Shown here in pieces: positions 3,750 to 21,860 of a stretch of 26,113 nt of DNA. How positions within the stretch are numbered: the stretch's first letter is position 1; the number at the start of each line of letters is the position of its first letter. Under the pieces are notes generated by a model. The model had not been told where the DNA came from and made no database searches. It worked only from the letters and a program-made list of their open reading frames with translations. Source of the stretch: a virus. Made by a program: the position numbers and the translations under genes. The stretch lies in IMG/VR virus record IMGVR_UViG_3300021959_000328, positions 1 to 26,113 of that record. One strand, written 5' to 3'.

Positions 3750-5113
3750 TGGCTAGTACATATTTAACAAGAACAGAAGCAAATTTTGGAACAGCAACAA
3801 ATAGAAAAAAATGCACAATTTCTTTTTGGCTAAAAAAATCGCTTCTTACTTCTCAACAAGCAGTAATGGGTGTAGAAACAACTCCAGCAGGTGGTTCTAA
3901 TGAAGCAAGAATTGTTTTAAAAAGTGATGATACTTTTGAGTTTTATGATTATCAAAGTGGTTATACATTTAGATATAAAACTAATAGATTATTAAGAGAT
4001 ACATCAGCTTACTACCACATTGTTTTAACAGTTGATACTACACAATCAACAACATCAGACAGAGTAAAAATTTATATTAATGGTGTTCAAGAAACATCAT
4101 TTAGCATAGGAACTCATCCAAATCAAAATTTAGATACTTTTTTAAATTCAGGTGCTTATGTGCAAATTGGCAGACAATCTACTGGTAACAGTTATTTTGA
4201 TGGATTAATTTCACATTTTCATTTTATAGATGGTACAGCTTATGATGCTTCAGCATTTGGAGAAACAGATACTACTACAGGTGAATGGAAAGCTAAGACA
4301 AGTCCTTCAGTTAATTATGGAACTAATGGATTCTTTATTCTTAAAGATGGTAATGGTATTACTGACCAATCAGGTGAAGGTAATGACTTTACATTAGGTG
4401 GTGGTACTCTTACAGATTTAAAAGATAATCCTGATAATACTTTTGCTACATTAAATCCTTTAGATAAAGGGTTAACTTCTACAAGTTTTAATTTATCAAA
4501 TGGAAATTTAACTATGGGAAATGCCGCTAATACTAATGATTATGGATTGAGAGGAACTTTAGGTGCATCATCTGGAAAATATTATTGGGAAATTAAAGCA
4601 GTAAATGGTGGTGAGGTTTTAGGTATTACAAAAAGTGATACAACATTAACAATAAATAATATGAGTGGTTCTCCAGATGCAGGTTTTTGGGGTTGGCAAT
4701 CTAATGGTACAGGTGCTTCCATCAATTCTTATAATAATGGAACATTTAGTAATTCTAATGCCTTACAAGGTTATGCAAGTAATTCTATAATTGGTGTTGC
4801 TTTAGATATGGATAATGGAAAATTATATATGTCTATTGATGGAGTTTGGAAAGATGCAGATAATAATACTTCTGACCCTGCTAATCAAACAAATCCTTTT
4901 TATACGACAATACCTACAGATGGAACATTTATAATGCCATATACAGAACATAGAAGTAGTGGTGACCCTGCTAGTCATTGGAACTTCGGCAATGGCTACT
5001 TTGGAACTACAGCAGTATCTAGTGCTGGTACAAATGCTAGTGACAATGGAATATTTGAGTATGATGTGCCTACAGGTTACACAGCTCTTAGTACGAAAGG
5101 ACTTAACTTATAA
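3749..5113 (+). CDS. LamG/SPRY-type tail adhesin, copy 2
   Basis: The 454-residue product begins MASTYLTRTEANFGTATNRK and has an N-terminal concanavalin A-like domain (about 1-165: CTISFWLKKS, YYHIVLTVDTT, VKIYINGVQ, FDGLISHFHFIDGTAYD). A conserved linker follows (DASAFGETDTTTGEWKAK, then NGFFILKDGNGITDQSGEGNDF). A SPRY-like region occupies about 255-415 (GKYYWEIKA, IIGVALDMDNGKLYMSIDG). This architecture is common in marine phage tail genes. The last 45 residues are nearly identical to the partial protein at the left edge of the window. One-base stop/start overlaps join it to both neighbours. It probably binds the host surface, perhaps glycans; the ligand is unknown. Confidence 0.78.
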   Translation: MASTYLTRTEANFGTATNRKKCTISFWLKKSLLTSQQAVMGVETTPAGGSNEARIVLKSDDTFEFYDYQSGYTFRYKTNRLLRDTSAYYHIVLTVDTTQSTTSDRVKIYINGVQETSFSIGTHPNQNLDTFLNSGAYVQIGRQSTGNSYFDGLISHFHFIDGTAYDASAFGETDTTTGEWKAKTSPSVNYGTNGFFILKDGNGITDQSGEGNDFTLGGGTLTDLKDNPDNTFATLNPLDKGLTSTSFNLSNGNLTMGNAANTNDYGLRGTLGASSGKYYWEIKAVNGGEVLGITKSDTTLTINNMSGSPDAGFWGWQSNGTGASINSYNNGTFSNSNALQGYASNSIIGVALDMDNGKLYMSIDGVWKDADNNTSDPANQTNPFYTTIPTDGTFIMPYTEHRSSGDPASHWNFGNGYFGTTAVSSAGTNASDNGIFEYDVPTGYTALSTKGLNL

Positions 5114-6144
5114 TGGCATACACAACAATTAATAAATCATCAGATTATTTTAATACTATTACTTATACAGGTAATGGTTCAACACAATCTATTACAGGTG
5201 TAGGATTTCAACCTGATTGGATTTGGAATAAAACAAGAAGTTCAACAGGTAATCATGTTACTTTTGATGCAGTAAGAGGAACATTGAAAAGATTAAAAGT
5301 ATCTACAACAGATGCAGAAACAAATTCATCTTCAGTTACTTCTTTTGATAATGATGGTTATACATTAGCAGGAGAACAAAATACTAATGGAGTTACTTAC
5401 GCATCATGGAACTGGTTAGGTGCAAATGGAACTACAGCTAATACAGATGGTTCTATAAGTTCTACAGTTTCAGCTAATACTACAAGTGGATTTAGTATTG
5501 TTAAATTTACTGCATCAGGAAGTGGCGATGAAACTGTCGGTCATGGGTTGGGAGTAAAACCTAAAATGGTTATAACTAAATCAACAAGTACAACTAATCC
5601 ATGGAATACTTACAATGAAAATTTAAACTCATCTGCACCAGAAGATTATTATGTAGCTTTAAATTCAACAAATGGTTCATCTAATGATAGTCCAGGTGTA
5701 TTTGGTGCTGGAATGACTTCATCTACTATTGGAGTAGGAGTTGGAATTGGTTTTACCTCTGGCGAAGATTACATAGCTTACTGCTTCGCAGAGAAAAAAG
5801 GATTTAGCAAGTTTGGTTCTTATACTGGTAATGGAAGTGCTGATGGTAGTTTTATTTACACAGGATTTAAACCTGCTTTTGTTATTCAAAAAAATACAAG
5901 TGCTACACAAGGTTGGCAACTACAAGACAACAAAAGATTAGGTTACAATCCAAATAACTATTTACTACAACCACATGATTCTGCTGCTGAAAGTGCTTTA
6001 CAAAGAATAGACCTACTTTCAAATGGATTTAAAGTCAGAACTACAGATGCAGGTCAAAATGCTAGTGGTAATAATTACATCTACATGACATTTGCAGAAG
6101 CACCCCTAGTTGGAACTAATGGTGTTACAGCTAAAGCAAGATAA
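5113..6144 (+). CDS. Tail-appendage repeat protein, copy 2 (GFQPDW-type)
   Basis: The 343-residue product is the full-length paralogue of the protein at 257-1297. It keeps the three internal motifs (GVGFQPDWIWNKT with FDAVRG; GHGLGVKPKMVITKS with NPWNTYN; TGFKPAFVIQKN with LQDNKRLGYNPN) and the YIAYCFAEKKGFSKFGSYTG block. The regions between motifs differ in length and sequence, as expected for surface loops under diversifying selection, while a 68-bp block is identical in DNA. It follows the LamG/SPRY adhesin in the same order as copy 1, so the duplicated unit is the gene pair. Role inferred as tail fibre or adhesin subunit. Confidence 0.8.
   Translation: MAYTTINKSSDYFNTITYTGNGSTQSITGVGFQPDWIWNKTRSSTGNHVTFDAVRGTLKRLKVSTTDAETNSSSVTSFDNDGYTLAGEQNTNGVTYASWNWLGANGTTANTDGSISSTVSANTTSGFSIVKFTASGSGDETVGHGLGVKPKMVITKSTSTTNPWNTYNENLNSSAPEDYYVALNSTNGSSNDSPGVFGAGMTSSTIGVGVGIGFTSGEDYIAYCFAEKKGFSKFGSYTGNGSADGSFIYTGFKPAFVIQKNTSATQGWQLQDNKRLGYNPNNYLLQPHDSAAESALQRIDLLSNGFKVRTTDAGQNASGNNYIYMTFAEAPLVGTNGVTAKAR
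5435..5502 (+). repeat. 68-bp exact direct repeat, copy 2
   Basis: Identical over 68 bases to 585-652, in the paralogous gene and at the equivalent protein position. Homologous recombination between the two copies would delete or exchange the intervening LamG and IPT/TIG genes. Confidence 0.9.
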
Positions 6145-8604: not shown

Positions 8605-8633
8605 TTGACAATGGTCAATTCTAATGATATAAT
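8605..8633 (+). promoter_or_regulatory. Perfect sigma-70 consensus promoter with extended -10
   Basis: TTGACA at 8605-8610 is followed after exactly 17 bases by TATAAT at 8628-8633, with TG one base upstream of the -10 (TGATATAAT). Both hexamers, the spacing and the extension are full consensus. The -35 also forms the left arm of a small palindrome (TTGAC-AATG-GTCAA, 8605-8618). The predicted start near 8640 lies inside the HlyC-like gene, so such a transcript would begin after that gene's start codon and serve the genes from 9067 onwards. Whether it works in the host is not known. Confidence 0.55.
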
Positions 8634-9057
8634 AGACATAATAAGATTATATAGGGAGTTTCCTAAATATAATTATCTTTCTGATAGAGATATTGCAAAA
8701 GCAATAATTCCTTCTTTGTCATTAAATCAGTTTAAAATATTTAGGTATCCAAATACTGATGTTGCTTATGCATTTACTAACTGGGCATATTTAAACAAGA
8801 CTGTTGAAGAAAGATTTTTACAAACAGGATTACTTGAAAATTTAGATTGGGATAGTGGAGATATTTGTTGGCATATAGAAACAGTAAATACTGCACTAGA
8901 TAAGATAAAAGAAATTTACAAATATACTGCAACAAGATTAGCAGAAGATATTGGTAAAGATAAATACTGTCATTGGATTAGAATAAATAAATCAGGCAGA
9001 GGAATTAAAAGAATAAATAAAATGAAAATAGAAATGGGATTAAGAAAATTTAACTAA
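8611..9057 (+). CDS. HlyC-like (RTX toxin-activating lysine acyltransferase) homologue
   Basis: The 148-residue product resembles the HlyC family, acyl-ACP-dependent enzymes that acylate lysines of RTX toxins. Against E. coli HlyC as I remember it, the N-terminal block (FPKYNYLSDRDIAKAIIPSL, then SLNQFKIF) aligns without gaps to the SPLHRNWPV... NQYALL region. VAYAFTNWAYLNKTVEE matches VAYCSWANL..E, and DWDSGDICWHIE matches DWTSGDRKWFID. IRINKSGRGIKRINK matches the later IRVDP block. The length is close to HlyC (about 170). The residue aligned with catalytic His23 is Tyr20 and that aligned with Asp92 is Glu90, so activity may be lost or altered. ATG 8611 is the start used here; TTG 8605, better spaced from an AGGA at 8591-8594, is an alternative. 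It lies 9 bases before a Lys-rich virion-type gene. Confidence 0.72.
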   Translation: MVNSNDIIDIIRLYREFPKYNYLSDRDIAKAIIPSLSLNQFKIFRYPNTDVAYAFTNWAYLNKTVEERFLQTGLLENLDWDSGDICWHIETVNTALDKIKEIYKYTATRLAEDIGKDKYCHWIRINKSGRGIKRINKMKIEMGLRKFN

Positions 9058-13107: not shown

Positions 13108-16100
13108 ATGTCTTCAGAGACTTTAACTAATAATGTTTCTTCAGAAAATGAATTAGAAAATTTTTTTAATACTAGCACAGTTAGTACACAAGAAGAAACT
13201 AAATCAATTGAACCTCAATCTGATATTCAACTTACTGAAGAACTACCCTCTCAAACACAACCTAAAACTGAACTAGAAAGTTTTTTTAGTTCTGAGCCAA
13301 TACCTGATTCTAATTCGTTAGAAGGGTTTCTTATGTCTGCAGAAAAACCAGAAATATCTAATCTTGAAAAATTAGAATATGGTTGGGATAAAGAAACTAT
13401 GGTACTTGGTAATTTATTTAGAATAGGTAAAGCTAAAGTACAAGATTTATTTGATGATGATAAAACATTTAAAGATTTTATTATTGAAAATGAAAAGAAA
13501 AGAATAGATGCTTTTGAAAAAGAACATTGGAAGTTTGATGATGAAGCTAAAGATAGTGGTATTGTAACAACAGGTTCAGTACTATCAATGTTGTTAGACC
13601 CTTATTATCTAGCTGGATATTTAAATCCTGTTAGTTTAAAAGCTATGACTAATCCTATTAGTGCTGCAACACTTAATGGTTTATTAGTTGGTGGTGATGT
13701 TGTTATAGATAACTTAGCAAAAACTGGTGAAATAGATTGGGGTAATGTAGCTGTTAGTTCTGGAGTTGCTGCAGCAGTTGGTGGTGTTATTCCTATAGGT
13801 GGTAAAGTATTAAGTAAGTATGCACCTAAATTAATAAAAAGTGAAGTTGAATTAGTTAAAAATTTTATTGATGGTAAACTAGCAAAACAAAACAATCTTA
13901 CTGTTCCTCAATTAAAAAAAATTCAAAAGGCTGCAAATAATACTGAAGTTAAAAATGCTAGTCAAGAATTAATTAAATGGACTAATAATTTTGTTAGACC
14001 TATAGCTGCAGAAACAGCAAAATTTAAATCATTAGAAAAAACATTATTAGATAAAAGAGATTTATTAATTAAGATAAGAAAATTAAAAGGTAGAAAAAAA
14101 CCTAAAGCAAATGTTCCTGGTATGTTAAAACAAGAACCTTTAGGTAAGCAAATAATAAATATTAGAAACGAAATTATAGATGCTAAGAAAGCTAGTGAAG
14201 CTGCAAAGAAAATATTAATAGATAAACAATCTAAAAAATTAGATAAATGGAGTGAGCTAGTTGCTAATAGAAATACAAAAATATTAGAAGCATTAAAAAA
14301 AGATGAAACAAAAATTGATTGGGCAGTAAGAAGTTTATTATCTGCAACTGTTAGACCATTAGTAGGTGCTGGTATGGGTGCAACTGGTGGTATTTTATTT
14401 GGTGACGAAGAAACTGATTTAATGTATTGGATTGCTGGTGGTGCAATGGCAGGTCAAATGCAAAAAATGATTCAAAGAAGTTCTAAGTTTGGTACTAATT
14501 TAGAAAAAGGAAAAGTATTAGGTATTATTGATAGAGAGTGGACACAGCTAACTATGCAAAAAGTTAGAGATTTAATGTCAGGAACAAGTGCATCTAAATT
14601 AAATTCATATGGTGGTGCTACAGAAAAAATAAGTAAGATGTTGTTTAGGGAAGTTGATTCTCCTGTTCAAGAAAAATCAGCTATTGCTGTTGCTGAACAA
14701 ATGCAAAGATATTACTTTAGAAAAATTAATGATATAACTAAAGGATATACTGATGATGAAATAGCTGCTGCTGTTTCTATTAATAGAGGTAAACAACTAA
14801 CAAAAGATACTCCTAGTAATGTAGAAAAATTATCTAAAGACCTAAGAAGTTATATGGATGAATTTAAAGATTTATATAATAGTTCAGGGTTCTTTTCTAA
14901 AAAAGAAATACAAGATTATTTTCCTAGATTATTAAACTACGATGTAATTAAAAAAGATGAGAAAGCTTTCTTAAAAACAGTAGAAGGTATATATAGAAGT
15001 TTAAAATATAAAGACCCTAAGAAGGCAGCAGAAAGATATTATCAAGGACATACAGCAGGTGAAGATACTGTTCTTAATGGTAGTGTATTAAAAGAAATAC
15101 TTGCAGGTAAAGATAAATTAACAAATAGAAATTTTATTAAAACTCCAGTATCAGACCATATAGAAAAAGAAAGAACATTAGTTGGTCCTTATAAATTAGT
15201 AGAAGAAGTATTAGAAAAGAAAGGGTATTTAGTAAATGATGCTCGTTCTATATTAAGTAATGTTGTGAATGATTCAGTTAAGTCTATATCTTTTGCTAGA
15301 CAGTTTGGAACTAATGGAGAATTACTTACTCCTTTAATGCAACAAATAAAAACTAAATATTTAAATTCTAATTTAGCAAAAGAAAAAGCTACAAGTGCTG
15401 CTGCTCAAGAAATAAAATTAGTATCTGATAGTATTGATGCATACTTTGATAGATATGGAAAAGCTATGACAGGTGCTGCAAAATCTAGTGCAAGTATATT
15501 AGCAACACTAGGTAATTTAAATATGCTAGGTAGAGTTACTATATCATCTTTAGGTGATATTGTTCAACCTTTTCAAAACTCTGCTAATTGGAGAAGTGTT
15601 GTTAAAGGATTTAAAGATACAGCATTAACAAATAGAAGAGAAACAGGAGCAGCAAAAGCTTTAAATCAAGATATAGATAATGCTATTGCATCTAGTTTAG
15701 AAAGGTCTGCTGGATTTGAAGGTAAAAATATAATGTTAAATGCTGGATGGGTAGGTAAAACTCCTACACAAAAAGTTAATAACATTATGTTTAAAGCATT
15801 AGGTTTACAATGGTTGACTGGTTATGCTAGAAGGTTTGCTTATAATACTGCTGTTGCTGATGCACATTATTTATCTAAAACTTTAAGTAAATTAGCATCA
15901 AAAGGTAACTTAGAAAAAAGACAAGCAAAACAAATTATATATTTCTTAGAAAATAATTATGGTGTTAAAACTAATCAAGCTTTACAAATAGGTAAGTTTA
16001 AAAATTTAGATGATGCACTTAAAGTTAGTAACAATAAAAAAATATTAAATCAAACAGGTGTTATTGGTGCAAACAGAGATGCATTAATACCTCAAGTATC

Positions 16101-17973
16101 TAATAGATTATTATTTACACAAAGTAATAATCAATGGGTAAGATTAATGGGTCAGTTTTTATCATGGGCTATGGCAAAATCTGCACAAACAAATAAAATT
16201 TTAGCACGAATGGAAAATGGTAATGCTAAAACTTTAGTAAAAACTTTAGCTGTATTACCTATTTATTCTGGTGTTCAATCATTAAGAGAAATAGCAAAGT
16301 ATGGTGAAGTTATAACTGATTACGATGCTAATAATAATAGATGGTGGTCTGAGGGTGCTAGATTATCTGGTATGTTTGGATATTTACCTGAATTAGTTGC
16401 AAATAGATTTATTGGTCCAGGTTCTAGAGAGCCTTGGTTTTTATTTCCTCCTGCTGCACAAATTGCATCAGTACCAGTTGAAGCAGGACAAGCTGCATGG
16501 AATGGTAATACTGATAGAGCAGTAAGAATTATAAATGAAAGACTATTACCTTTACCTAACTGGAGAAGGAACATTGTAAAAATATTTGGTTCTCCACTTA
16601 AAGAATTAAAAACTTCTTCTAGTGGAACTCTTTCTCCTTTTGCAATGGGAGGTGTTGTTAAAAGAAAAAAATTTAGTAATGGAGATGCTGTTGAACAGGC
16701 AGCTAAAGAAGTAATATTACCTATAGCAAAACCAGAAAAAACAGATGAAAATAGTTTACCTGTAATGGAATTAAATAATACAATTCCTGAAACAGTTAAA
16801 ACTAGAATTAAAATAAATGAAAATGATAAATTATTTAAGGATGATACAAGTGAAATAGTTCATGATTCAGTTGAGAAAGGAAATAAAACTATAGGATATG
16901 GTCATAAATTAACTGATGATGAAGTTAAAAGTGGAGAAGTATATGGTTATAAAATATCTACCTTAACAAAAGAACAAGCTGAAGATATATTTAATAGAGA
17001 TTTAGAAGTAGCTAGAGGAGATGTTGATAGTTTAATAGATAAAGATACTACTGACCCTAAAGCTTATGGAGTATTAATAGAAATGGCACATCAAATTGGA
17101 GGTACAAAATTACCTAAATTTAAAAAAATGTTAGAAGCTGTTAATAGAAAAGATTATAAAGAAGCAGCAAAGCAAATGCTATTTAACTATGATGATAAAG
17201 GTAACAAAATTGGAAAAACTAATTGGAATAAACAAATGGAAAATAGTGGAAGAGCAGAGCAATTAGCTGCTTTAATGTCTAGTATTAATTTTGATAGAAT
17301 AGAAAAAAATATAGGTGGTATAGTAGGTAAAGCTATAGCAAAAGGACTATCAAAAGCTGCAGTTAAAAGAGGTGATACAGCAATATCAACTACAGTAGGT
17401 ACATATAAAAAAGTTAATAAAATATTTGATGATGCTAATGTTAAAACTGTACATGATTTTGGTTCTGGTTTAGGTTTAGGTTCAAAAGAATTTACAAATA
17501 AAATTGTAACTAATCATGAACCTTTTGTTCCAGTAGAAAAAATTATAAAAGTAAAAGGTAAAGTACCTGATTATAAAACAGCAGATGATGTTATATTTAA
17601 AGAAGGATTTGCATCTAAAGATGGTGTTGTTAATGCGAATGTATTAAATGTAATTGAAGACCCTATTGAAAGAGCAAATGTTGTTAGACAAATATCACAA
17701 TTAATTAGTAATAAAGGTATGGCTGTTATAACAACAAGAGGTAATGAAGTTACTAAAGCAGCCCAATCTTCTAAGAATGCTACACCATTTAATGATGGTT
17801 GGATATTTGGTAAGGGAGATAAGAAAACTTTTCAAAAAGGATATAGTCAAAAAGAATTAGAAGAATATATTAAAAGTATCTTAGGCGATAAATTTAAAGT
17901 AGAAAAAATTCCTAGTAAATATAAAATAGGAACATCAGGAGTAATTATTAAAAAAATAAAAGGAGATAAATAA
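13108..17973 (+). CDS. Giant gp16-like ejection protein with lysozyme and methyltransferase-like domains (1621 aa)
   Basis: This is the largest gene in the window. Residues 1-90 are an acidic linker with repeated motifs (ELENFF 15-20, ELESFF 55-60, SLEGFL 70-75). Hydrophobic segments at about 152-185, 212-235 and 408-448 could insert in a membrane. A long helical body follows to about 1180, then a linker with MGGVVKRKKFSNGDAVEQ. Residues about 1230-1395 look like a GH24-type lysozyme: candidate catalytic Glu1238, TIGYGHKLT at 1261-1269, a MAHQIGGTKLPKFKKML block and a closing SGRAEQLAALM. Residues about 1430-1621 resemble a class I methyltransferase: DFGSGLGLGS (1450-1459) as the SAM-binding loop and VLNVIEDPIER (1512-1522). 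In T7 gp16 the murein-degrading domain is N-terminal; here it is near the C-terminus. RBS AGGAGAAAC precedes the ATG. Confidence 0.8.
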   Translation: MSSETLTNNVSSENELENFFNTSTVSTQEETKSIEPQSDIQLTEELPSQTQPKTELESFFSSEPIPDSNSLEGFLMSAEKPEISNLEKLEYGWDKETMVLGNLFRIGKAKVQDLFDDDKTFKDFIIENEKKRIDAFEKEHWKFDDEAKDSGIVTTGSVLSMLLDPYYLAGYLNPVSLKAMTNPISAATLNGLLVGGDVVIDNLAKTGEIDWGNVAVSSGVAAAVGGVIPIGGKVLSKYAPKLIKSEVELVKNFIDGKLAKQNNLTVPQLKKIQKAANNTEVKNASQELIKWTNNFVRPIAAETAKFKSLEKTLLDKRDLLIKIRKLKGRKKPKANVPGMLKQEPLGKQIINIRNEIIDAKKASEAAKKILIDKQSKKLDKWSELVANRNTKILEALKKDETKIDWAVRSLLSATVRPLVGAGMGATGGILFGDEETDLMYWIAGGAMAGQMQKMIQRSSKFGTNLEKGKVLGIIDREWTQLTMQKVRDLMSGTSASKLNSYGGATEKISKMLFREVDSPVQEKSAIAVAEQMQRYYFRKINDITKGYTDDEIAAAVSINRGKQLTKDTPSNVEKLSKDLRSYMDEFKDLYNSSGFFSKKEIQDYFPRLLNYDVIKKDEKAFLKTVEGIYRSLKYKDPKKAAERYYQGHTAGEDTVLNGSVLKEILAGKDKLTNRNFIKTPVSDHIEKERTLVGPYKLVEEVLEKKGYLVNDARSILSNVVNDSVKSISFARQFGTNGELLTPLMQQIKTKYLNSNLAKEKATSAAAQEIKLVSDSIDAYFDRYGKAMTGAAKSSASILATLGNLNMLGRVTISSLGDIVQPFQNSANWRSVVKGFKDTALTNRRETGAAKALNQDIDNAIASSLERSAGFEGKNIMLNAGWVGKTPTQKVNNIMFKALGLQWLTGYARRFAYNTAVADAHYLSKTLSKLASKGNLEKRQAKQIIYFLENNYGVKTNQALQIGKFKNLDDALKVSNNKKILNQTGVIGANRDALIPQVSNRLLFTQSNNQWVRLMGQFLSWAMAKSAQTNKILARMENGNAKTLVKTLAVLPIYSGVQSLREIAKYGEVITDYDANNNRWWSEGARLSGMFGYLPELVANRFIGPGSREPWFLFPPAAQIASVPVEAGQAAWNGNTDRAVRIINERLLPLPNWRRNIVKIFGSPLKELKTSSSGTLSPFAMGGVVKRKKFSNGDAVEQAAKEVILPIAKPEKTDENSLPVMELNNTIPETVKTRIKINENDKLFKDDTSEIVHDSVEKGNKTIGYGHKLTDDEVKSGEVYGYKISTLTKEQAEDIFNRDLEVARGDVDSLIDKDTTDPKAYGVLIEMAHQIGGTKLPKFKKMLEAVNRKDYKEAAKQMLFNYDDKGNKIGKTNWNKQMENSGRAEQLAALMSSINFDRIEKNIGGIVGKAIAKGLSKAAVKRGDTAISTTVGTYKKVNKIFDDANVKTVHDFGSGLGLGSKEFTNKIVTNHEPFVPVEKIIKVKGKVPDYKTADDVIFKEGFASKDGVVNANVLNVIEDPIERANVVRQISQLISNKGMAVITTRGNEVTKAAQSSKNATPFNDGWIFGKGDKKTFQKGYSQKELEEYIKSILGDKFKVEKIPSKYKIGTSGVIIKKIKGDK

Positions 17974-17974
17974 T

Positions 17975-18409
17975 ATGCCATTTGAAATGATAACAATGCT
18001 AGGCTCAACTGTACTCGGAGGATTTATGAGTATATGGTCGCAAAGTATTAAGGCTAAACAAGCAGAACAAAAGATGTTACTGCAAAGAGCAGAGGTGCAA
18101 ACTGCTGCGTTTAAAGATGCAAGAGAATATGAGAATGTAGGATTCCAATGGACTAGAAGAATTATAGCATTGACTGCTGTATTTGCTATTATAGTATTAC
18201 CAAAACTATTACCATTGATTGACCCTGAAGCAAATGTAATCGTAGGTTATTTAGAATTTAAACCTGGATTCTTTTTTCTAACTGAGGGTAGAGATGTGTT
18301 AAAGTGGGAATATTTATCAGCTAAAGGACTAGTACTTACACCATTAGATACAAACTTAGTATCAGCTATTATTGGTTTGTACTTTGGAGGTTCACTAGTT
18401 AAGAAATAA
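17975..18409 (+). CDS. Holin-like membrane protein (144 aa)
   Basis: The product has a weakly hydrophobic N-terminus (MPFEMITMLGSTVLGGFMSI), a charged helix (QSIKAKQAEQKMLLQRAEVQ), then a strong membrane segment (TRRIIALTAVFAIIVLPKLL, about 61-80). A C-terminal hydrophobic segment ends in basic residues (VSAIIGLYFGGSLVKK). The order and the FQWTRR entry into the membrane segment recall the three-TM holin family of phages and gene transfer agents (GTA_holin_3TM), but this is from memory. Holins permeabilise the inner membrane to time lysis. It directly follows the ejection protein and begins a run of small membrane genes. The protein is longer than most holins. Confidence 0.6.
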   Translation: MPFEMITMLGSTVLGGFMSIWSQSIKAKQAEQKMLLQRAEVQTAAFKDAREYENVGFQWTRRIIALTAVFAIIVLPKLLPLIDPEANVIVGYLEFKPGFFFLTEGRDVLKWEYLSAKGLVLTPLDTNLVSAIIGLYFGGSLVKK

Positions 18410-21335: not shown

Positions 21336-21486
21336 TTTCTTTCTTTCCATGACAAACTTCATATGAAGCATTACAATTTTTACAACTGTAATTACTTACA
21401 AATAAATATTCATCATTGTCATATACATCTTCAGCATCAAAATCATTACCCCAAAGTACATCACCATTACAAATAAAACACTTCAC
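21328..21486 (-). CDS. Zinc-ribbon mini-protein with GTG start (52 aa)
   Basis: GTG at 21486-21484 overlaps the speD-like stop (TAGTG), and the frame runs to TAG at 21330-21328. The product reads (M)KCFICNGDVLWGNDFDAEDV, then an acidic Asp/Tyr stretch, then YSCKNCNASYEVCHGKKENE. The paired CxxC and CxxC knuckles, 30 or so residues apart, make a zinc ribbon. The coupled GTG start and clean Cys pairing argue strongly that this is coding. Other phage zinc ribbons bind nucleic acid or RNA polymerase; which applies here is unknown. Confidence 0.72.
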   Translation of the reverse strand: MKCFICNGDVLWGNDFDAEDVYDNDEYLFVSNYSCKNCNASYEVCHGKKENE

Positions 21487-21860
21487 TATTTTACCTCTAT
21501 AAAATTAGTTTCTCTATCAAAGTATTTATACTCAACAGTTATAGGTTTAAACTCTTCTAAACAATCTATAACATCTGCTTTCTTAAATTCTTTACATGAA
21601 TAAACATCTAATTGAATTAACGCAGGATTCTGTTCATCCCAAGTATGAATACTAATATGTGATGTATCTATAATAGCAACACCACTTAATCCTTTGTTTC
21701 CTTTCTTAGAAACTTGTGAAGAATAAGGACCTGCAAGTATATTCATATCAATTGTTTTAATTAATTTTCTCATCCAAGAAATAGTTTCTTCTTCATTCTT
21801 AGGTGGGTTTTGTACCTCTGCTCTAATTAGTAGGTGCTTGTGTTTCAGTTCTTTTTCCAT
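21486..21860 (-). CDS. speD: SpeD-type pyruvoyl-dependent S-adenosylmethionine decarboxylase proenzyme
   Basis: The 124-residue product belongs to the small prokaryotic AdoMet decarboxylase family, which makes decarboxylated SAM for spermidine synthesis after self-cleavage at a serine that becomes pyruvoyl. The core GVAIIDTSHISIHTWDE and LDVYSC match the family: Ser67 is the predicted cleavage serine, His72 and Cys89 the catalytic pair, with spacing close to that of the Thermotoga enzyme. The residue before the serine is Thr66 where I recall Glu in that enzyme. The N-terminal KHLLIRAEV strand is also typical, and the length is normal. No speE partner is visible. Some SpeD homologues, including phage ones, are reported to decarboxylate arginine or ornithine, so substrate is uncertain. 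It overlaps the nuclease gene by 38 bases. Confidence 0.88.
   Translation of the reverse strand: MEKELKHKHLLIRAEVQNPPKNEEETISWMRKLIKTIDMNILAGPYSSQVSKKGNKGLSGVAIIDTSHISIHTWDEQNPALIQLDVYSCKEFKKADVIDCLEEFKPITVEYKYFDRETNFIEVK

Follow-up and report, generated by a model that had tools for sequence, protein, structure and literature searches.

The stretch of DNA analyzed here (hereafter the window) is the full 26,113 nucleotides of a single virus record, IMG/VR record IMGVR_UViG_3300021959_000328, and our subject is the methyltransferase domain at the C-terminal end of its large, ejection-type protein of 1621 amino acids (aa). The open reading frame (ORF) encoding this protein (13108..17973, on the plus strand, like its parts below) comes last in an ordered trio of 192-, 580- and 1621-aa ORFs and is gp16-like by position and size. 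It comprises a conserved body (aa 501-1191, the survey query from alignment A4; 14608..16680), a phage lysozyme domain (aa 1256-1365; 16873..17202; PF00959, E 8.4e-11, above cut-off), an interdomain linker beginning KNIGGIVGKAIAKG (17305..17364), and a putative class I S-adenosylmethionine (SAM) methyltransferase domain (aa 1425-1621; 17380..17970). The preliminary description of this DNA placed a methyltransferase-like domain at 17395-17973; the domain is there, although this start is slightly late, since the fold runs from about aa 1420 (17365) and the linker from about aa 1400. The linker coincides with a mosaic breakpoint in blastn comparisons with relatives, and residues 1-11 of the structural model have predicted local distance difference test (pLDDT) values below 50. 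An interdomain F-x-GG-x-V motif, a candidate protease site, has one exact match among the 17 ORFs of the window.

Body homologues occur in HTVC104P gp54 and HTVC103P gp52 (42%) and in HTVC115P gp40 (32%), and these three phages are the only matches of the body protein among phage records. Because of these body matches and a similar gene order, the window virus groups, on sequence comparison, with the HTVC103P-type pelagiphages. HTVC103P and HTVC104P are isolates whose recorded host is Pelagibacter HTCC7211; the source virus is marine and probably infects SAR11-type bacteria.

The C-terminal methyltransferase domain

Conservation was assessed in alignment A2, which holds 42 sequences (the window domain plus 41 relatives, 27-90% identical to it) and in which residue n corresponds to protein aa 1403+n. 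The two elements that had first drawn attention to this region, the loop DFGSGLGLGS (motif I, the putative SAM loop; aa 1450-1459, 17455..17484) and the block VLNVIEDPIER (motif IV region; aa 1512-1522, 17641..17673), are both present and hold invariant residues across the alignment: D47, G49 and G51 in the loop and L110, N111 and R119 in the block. Also invariant are I126, R141, E180-L181 and Q173-K174-G175, the last forming a QKG motif (aa 1576-1578, 17833..17841) within TFQKGYSQKEL, while E68-P69 is conserved in at least 90% of sequences. The D.G.G.G pattern is complete in 40 of the 42 sequences and QKG[FY] in all 42. Class I methyltransferases hold SAM at a glycine-rich loop after strand 1 and an acidic residue after strand 2; in our model, D47-x-G-x-G ends strand 1 and E68 follows strand 2. 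By itself the D.G.G.G motif also turned up in shuffled sequences, 167 of 20000 for the domain and 169 of 5000 for the entire protein.

The domain is under purifying selection, with a median ratio of nonsynonymous to synonymous substitution rates (dN/dS) of 0.127 and a maximum of 0.304 (17 close copies, 16 of them distinct; 67 of 136 pairs with dS 0.1-1.5). With its intact SAM loop, the domain looks active. A catalytically dead domain, kept as a SAM-responsive or structural module, could fit the occurrence of both fused and separate versions (see below), but the invariance of SAM-loop residues in sequences as little as 27% identical to the window, together with the low dN/dS, makes it highly unlikely.

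The AlphaFold model built from the 42-sequence alignment is confident (mean pLDDT 92.6, predicted template modeling score 0.88). Foldseek matched it to 749 chains in the PDB at E <= 1e-3, the best being Trm9-Trm112 (1.3e-8). Likewise, 999 of 1000 chains compared with VIA-align reached Z >= 8, led by 2p8j (Z 16.6, root-mean-square deviation [rmsd] 3.3, 179 residues aligned), METTL6 8owx (Z 16.0, rmsd 3.3, 194 aligned) and Trm9 5cm2 (Z 15.9, rmsd 3.1, 166 aligned). The preliminary description had tied its proposal to a Rossmann-type fold in the predicted structure, and this match to solved methyltransferases confirms, at the level of the model, a class I SAM methyltransferase fold over approximately aa 1425-1621. 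The matches say little about substrate: the 50 highest listed are tRNA, amine, sugar, other small-molecule or unnamed methyltransferases, and rows within Z 1 of each other count as tied, so that no substrate follows from them. METTL6, Trm9-Trm112 and small-molecule N-methyltransferases are the nearest folds, yet they share only ~8-17% identity with the window domain.

A Pfam scan found no family above cut-off on the window domain itself, as would be expected if the motifs behind the methyltransferase call had arisen by chance and there were no such domain. Against this stand the confident model, the structural matches, the NCBIfam match described below and two relatives (L026 and L096) that match Pfam methyltransferase families above cut-off, and we regard a chance match as vanishingly improbable. 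A PHROGs search at 0.01 gave no match for the window domain; phrog_2774, of unknown function, was matched by 17 of the 42 aligned members (best 2e-17), and phrog_8156, labeled methyltransferase, by 12. Part of this methyltransferase family has therefore already been clustered, without a studied function. We found no description of the family in the open PMC literature, a search that does not extend to subscription papers.

The preliminary description had pointed to TIGR04096 (dnd_rel_methyl), a family of putative methyltransferases named for DNA phosphorothioation (Dnd), and this proved right as a partial and distant match: NCBIfam TIGR04096 aligns with aa 1507-1594 (E 9.3e-9) over profile positions 72-152 of 478, and the 34.5 bits lie far under the curated cut-off of 150, the full ~478-position architecture being absent. 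A smaller alignment of 10 sequences contains 8 with a TIGR04096 match at E <= 0.01. Among 143 genomes of one class, seven hold any match and one holds a full member above cut-off (L103, 550.9 bits), whose N-terminal part aligns with the phage domains in profile comparison (98.6% probability, 33% identity over 120 columns) across the VINVIEDP and TFQK.FSQ.EL blocks. The likeness is thus that of a homologous N-terminal methyltransferase sharing the D-x-G-x-G loop and the N...VINVIEDP.ER, DGW and TFQK.FSQ.EL blocks. The differences are that the full member has L where the window QKG motif has G, and that the window protein ends after the methyltransferase, lacking a counterpart of the family's C-terminal part, and carries its domain fused to a phage virion-type protein. 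The association with phosphorothioation itself is weak. The genome with the full member yielded no DndC match and no DndD match above cut-off, and DndC was found in none of 10 phage records with the domain, which may be fragments. Since DndC was found with neither, the phosphorothioation in the family's name appears to be weak guidance for the window domain; the accessible text of a reappraisal of Dnd systems (PMC10853773) does not mention TIGR04096. The phrase "phosphorothioation-associated" was met in one Rhodococcus genome paper.

Patchy presence and genomic settings

The methyltransferase domain is an optional module that has been gained and lost among related viruses. We surveyed 82 loci with the same body (the best 80 of 170 relatives in viral contigs plus HTVC103P and HTVC115P, some of them near-copies), a survey for the same fusion having been proposed in the preliminary description. 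The domain is fused in 20 loci, encoded as a separate ORF in two and absent from 50, while 10 loci held too little DNA for a call; L116 and L185 were scored as absent despite a broken body ORF, and in L015, counted as separate, the reading frame is interrupted within the lysozyme, so that this is not a cleanly separate gene. A tree of 70 of 73 rows (72 determined loci and the window, with three under 380 aa excluded; 62 different sequences, with long-branch warnings), 21 with the domain and 49 without, cannot be explained by fewer than 14 gains or losses, every one of them required by well-supported branches. As the mean after shuffling was 18 changes, presence of the domain is mildly clustered. 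In 20 records lacking the domain at the body locus, which may be fragments, no copy was found elsewhere in the record, and the same search recovered the domain from all 11 records in which it was known to be present.

Close comparisons place the edge of this module at the linker. Nucleotide identity in blastn resumes at 17308 in L009, L010 and L012 and at 17292 in L018, and in L009 and L010 the domain is 97% identical to that of the window while the body is 44-54% identical. A recent lateral transfer of the methyltransferase alone was considered and rejected: positions 19.7-25.3 kb of the window likewise show 93-98% identity to L009, L010 and L012, and it is the body and lysozyme that diverge in blastn. 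These comparisons support a mosaic whose parts meet at the linker (17292-17308), in addition to the patchy presence. Other loci carry different sequence in this position. L115, whose body is 94% identical, lacks the domain, and its tail shares 58% identity with the part of L019 that holds the glucosaminidase. In HTVC115P gp40, the shared body is accompanied by other sequence where the domain would be.

This replacement sequence in HTVC115P gp40 (L112; approximately aa 1220-1893) has a tail like those of L055 and L056. It has no Pfam match and is possibly another cargo domain.

A tblastn search against 50,697 phage records detected the domain in 12 of them: pelagiphages HTVC103P and HTVC104P (62-63%), roseophages CRP-3 and CRP-738, Microcystis phage MJing1, Rhodobacteraceae phage LS06-2018-MD07 and six mycobacteriophage records (Myrna, ScoobyDoobyDoo, Phabba twice and Bigswole twice). 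A search of IMG/VR, from which the best 80 of 309 confirmed stretches were kept, added further relatives, and a one-genome-per-species collection gave four matches to search patterns that were phage-derived. In CRP-3, an HMO-2011-type phage according to the accessible text of PMC6918029, the domain belongs to a different large protein (gp36) with a PF07486 cell-wall hydrolase and DUF7178. The LS06-2018-MD07 protein (3,100 aa in the stretch examined) also pairs it with DUF7178, and a match to ADP-ribosyltransferase in the same protein falls below cut-off.

Relatives at distant loci lie near virion and packaging genes. Among 39 such loci (L060-L098, several of them near-copies), 32 include a terminase or portal gene; in one of these 32 (L068), the profile did not pick up the ORF of the methyltransferase. 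Of the seven without either gene, L087 has a major head protein nearby. Most commonly, the methyltransferase stands after the large terminase subunit (TerL) and before the portal, and PHROGs confirmed both of these flanking genes in L065; the methyltransferase precedes TerL in L083, L085, L089 and L091 and follows the portal in CRP-3, CRP-738, MJing1 and L096. In a methyltransferase tree of 47 rows, a hand-picked subset that leaves out L100 (L099 had already been left out of the alignment), the domains fused to the HTVC103P-type body group in a single clade (100/99), separate from those in terminase-portal and other arrangements. Three of the 19 "ejection" labels in this set (L042, L050 and L053) rest on adjoining sequence, as their contigs lack the body.

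Two further fusions were seen among the distant loci. In L081 (1974-3113), L069 and L075, a ~380-aa N-terminal domain, without a PHROGs match in L081, is fused to the methyltransferase between TerL and portal. L082 (3947-5743) joins the methyltransferase in one protein with a cytidylyltransferase-like domain (PF01467, 3.1e-5).

The packaging-type setting bears on what we consider the strongest rival explanation, that the enzyme is expressed late and does its work in the producing cell. Held at the portal or core while particles are assembled, it would methylate a virion protein or the DNA being packaged and merely travel in the particle. SAM is available in the producing cell, the genes of relatives lie between those for terminase and portal, ahead of terminase or behind portal, and the domain can be a separate ORF, all of which would suit such an enzyme. 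However, the domain is missing from 50 of the 82 loci that share this body, so it is not needed for assembly, and its fusion partners are unrelated to one another; on balance, action in the producing cell appears somewhat unlikely.

A proposed virion-borne effector and its possible targets

Our preferred reading, held tentatively, is that the domain is an optional class I SAM methyltransferase effector, carried in the virion on the largest ejection-type protein of HTVC103P-type phages and acting on its target early in infection. Under this scenario, the methyltransferase would be packaged in few copies in the internal core, leave the capsid with the core proteins at infection and reach host SAM; it could then methylate a host target or one in the incoming nucleic acid, as a counter-defense or host-conditioning effector. 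More tentatively still, a virion-delivered, non-DNA-type methyltransferase family spanning pelagiphages, roseophages, mycobacteriophages and a cyanophage may modify RNA, protein or a small molecule before phage genes are expressed, with the pelagiphage version a plug-in module gained and lost like counter-defense cargo.

Calling the large protein an ejection protein is an analogy, drawn from the order of the genes and from its size, its helical character and its hydrolase. T7 gp16 and other internal virion proteins D share with it a large size, a mostly helical makeup (the body is predicted to be predominantly helical by a weak AlphaFold model, pLDDT 56), a peptidoglycan hydrolase and the last place in a small, medium and large trio. 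The 192- and 580-aa ORFs are gp14- and gp15-like by size and order only, and PHROGs at 0.001 gave no match for either. T7 gp16 differs in having its hydrolase at the N-terminus, whereas that of the window protein lies near the C-terminus, and in lacking the extra methyltransferase. The accessible text of a review (PMC8954989) places the N-terminal hydrolase of T7 gp16 in the periplasm and models its C-terminal region in the host cytoplasm; this topology cannot be read across to the window protein because its hydrolase is near the C-terminus and the domain order can flip.

Several observations weigh against a virion-delivered effector. Profile comparison found no match of the body to T7 gp16 or HMO-2011 gp22, and nothing in the PDB was matched by sequence profile or, with the weak body model, by Foldseek at E <= 1e-3, which is why "ejection protein" holds by analogy. 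The claim of the preliminary description that a methyltransferase is fused to the C-terminus of an ejection protein is supported as to the fold and its fusion to a large ejection-type protein, which also carries a lysozyme; no homology of that protein to T7 gp16 was found in these comparisons. The fusion is also not essential: in close relatives L017 and L005, an in-frame stop parts the domain from the hydrolase and a separate ORF then follows. Furthermore, the methyltransferase adjoins a peptidoglycan hydrolase, and such hydrolases work in the periplasm, where SAM is not expected. Their order can swap, being body, lysozyme, methyltransferase in the window and body, methyltransferase, lysozyme in HTVC103P gp52. 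The hydrolase varies as well, from PF00959 in the window to PF01832 glucosaminidase in L019 and L052 and PF18013 tail lysozyme in L014, and in L013 and L018 the stretch adjoining the domain has no Pfam match. Absence from 50 of the 82 loci indicates that the domain is dispensable. Packaging, ejection, access to SAM, early action and the target are steps that we infer.

The preliminary description had extended its proposal to an injected modification or anti-defense function, with P1 DarB as a parallel. The fusion and the virion-type context lend partial support to an injected effector; DNA as the target fared poorly. A DarB-like protector would methylate entering phage DNA against restriction enzymes. 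In favor of such a role, the methyltransferase is probably virion-associated, its presence is patchy, as for a counter-defense gene, and it partially matches a family named for DNA phosphorothioation. P1 DarB, too, is a large phage protein that includes a methyltransferase domain and is thought to be carried by the virion, as set out in the accessible text of PMC5512222. The same text describes DarB-type proteins with NPP(Y/F), LPD36 and a superfamily 2 helicase; the methyltransferases of polyvalent proteins are, in its account, mostly adenine enzymes of the EcoKI/TaqI-like kind, and a helicase is fused to nearly all of them. In our data, [DNS]PP[FYW] occurs in 0 of the 42 aligned sequences, the window domain has no cysteine, and Pfam scans of the window protein and 18 relatives, some cut by contig ends, show no helicase. 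By these sequence features, the domain is of a different methyltransferase class from DarB-type enzymes, and with the motif absent and no helicase found, DarB-like DNA protection is the weaker explanation.

With no Dnd linkage found in the genome and phage records examined, and with the fold matching tRNA and small-molecule enzymes, we rejected DarB-like DNA base methylation. A DNA-modifying, DarB-like role is unsupported by these comparisons, and we judge it unlikely; RNA, protein or a small molecule would be a more probable target than a DNA base.

If the preferred reading of an early-acting, virion-borne effector is correct, its significance would lie in the enzyme class. Virion-borne methyltransferase domains of the DarB type are, in the accessible text of PMC5512222, mostly helicase-fused DNA adenine methyltransferases; a different class, associated in several phage groups with proteins of the entry or packaging type and gained or lost at least 14 times within one marine group, suggests an early effector of a new kind. 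Since HTVC103P and HTVC104P are isolates, packaging, ejection and substrate are directly testable.

Neighboring genes in the window

An ORF of the AdoMet (S-adenosylmethionine) decarboxylase family lies on the minus strand at 21486-21860 (PF02675, E 2.2e-16) and is also annotated in HTVC103P and HTVC104P. A gene of this family was found within ~6 kb in 14 of 16 loci with the methyltransferase domain versus 20 of 39 without it, by a search that missed some genes otherwise found, and in 10 of 11 versus 7 of 17 among longer records. A link between the two was nonetheless rejected, as it was not significant after correction for phylogeny (median p 0.25). Some phage AdoMet decarboxylase homologues are ornithine or arginine decarboxylases, according to the accessible text of PMC10407285.

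The remaining features lie on the plus strand. An ORF with a TTG start (8605-9057) encodes an HlyC-type toxin acyltransferase domain (PF02794, E 1.6e-13), and a "toxin-activating lysine-acyltransferase" is annotated for HTVC103P gp34 and HTVC115P gp46. Two DUF7483 proteins (257-1297 and 5113-6144; E 3.6e-128 and 3.9e-121) flank ORFs with Ig-like and lectin-like matches. Immediately downstream of the large gene, a 144-aa ORF (17975-18409; phrog_38283, 4.4e-8) starts one base past its stop, and a stretch similar to this ORF is kept in L127, which is without the methyltransferase.

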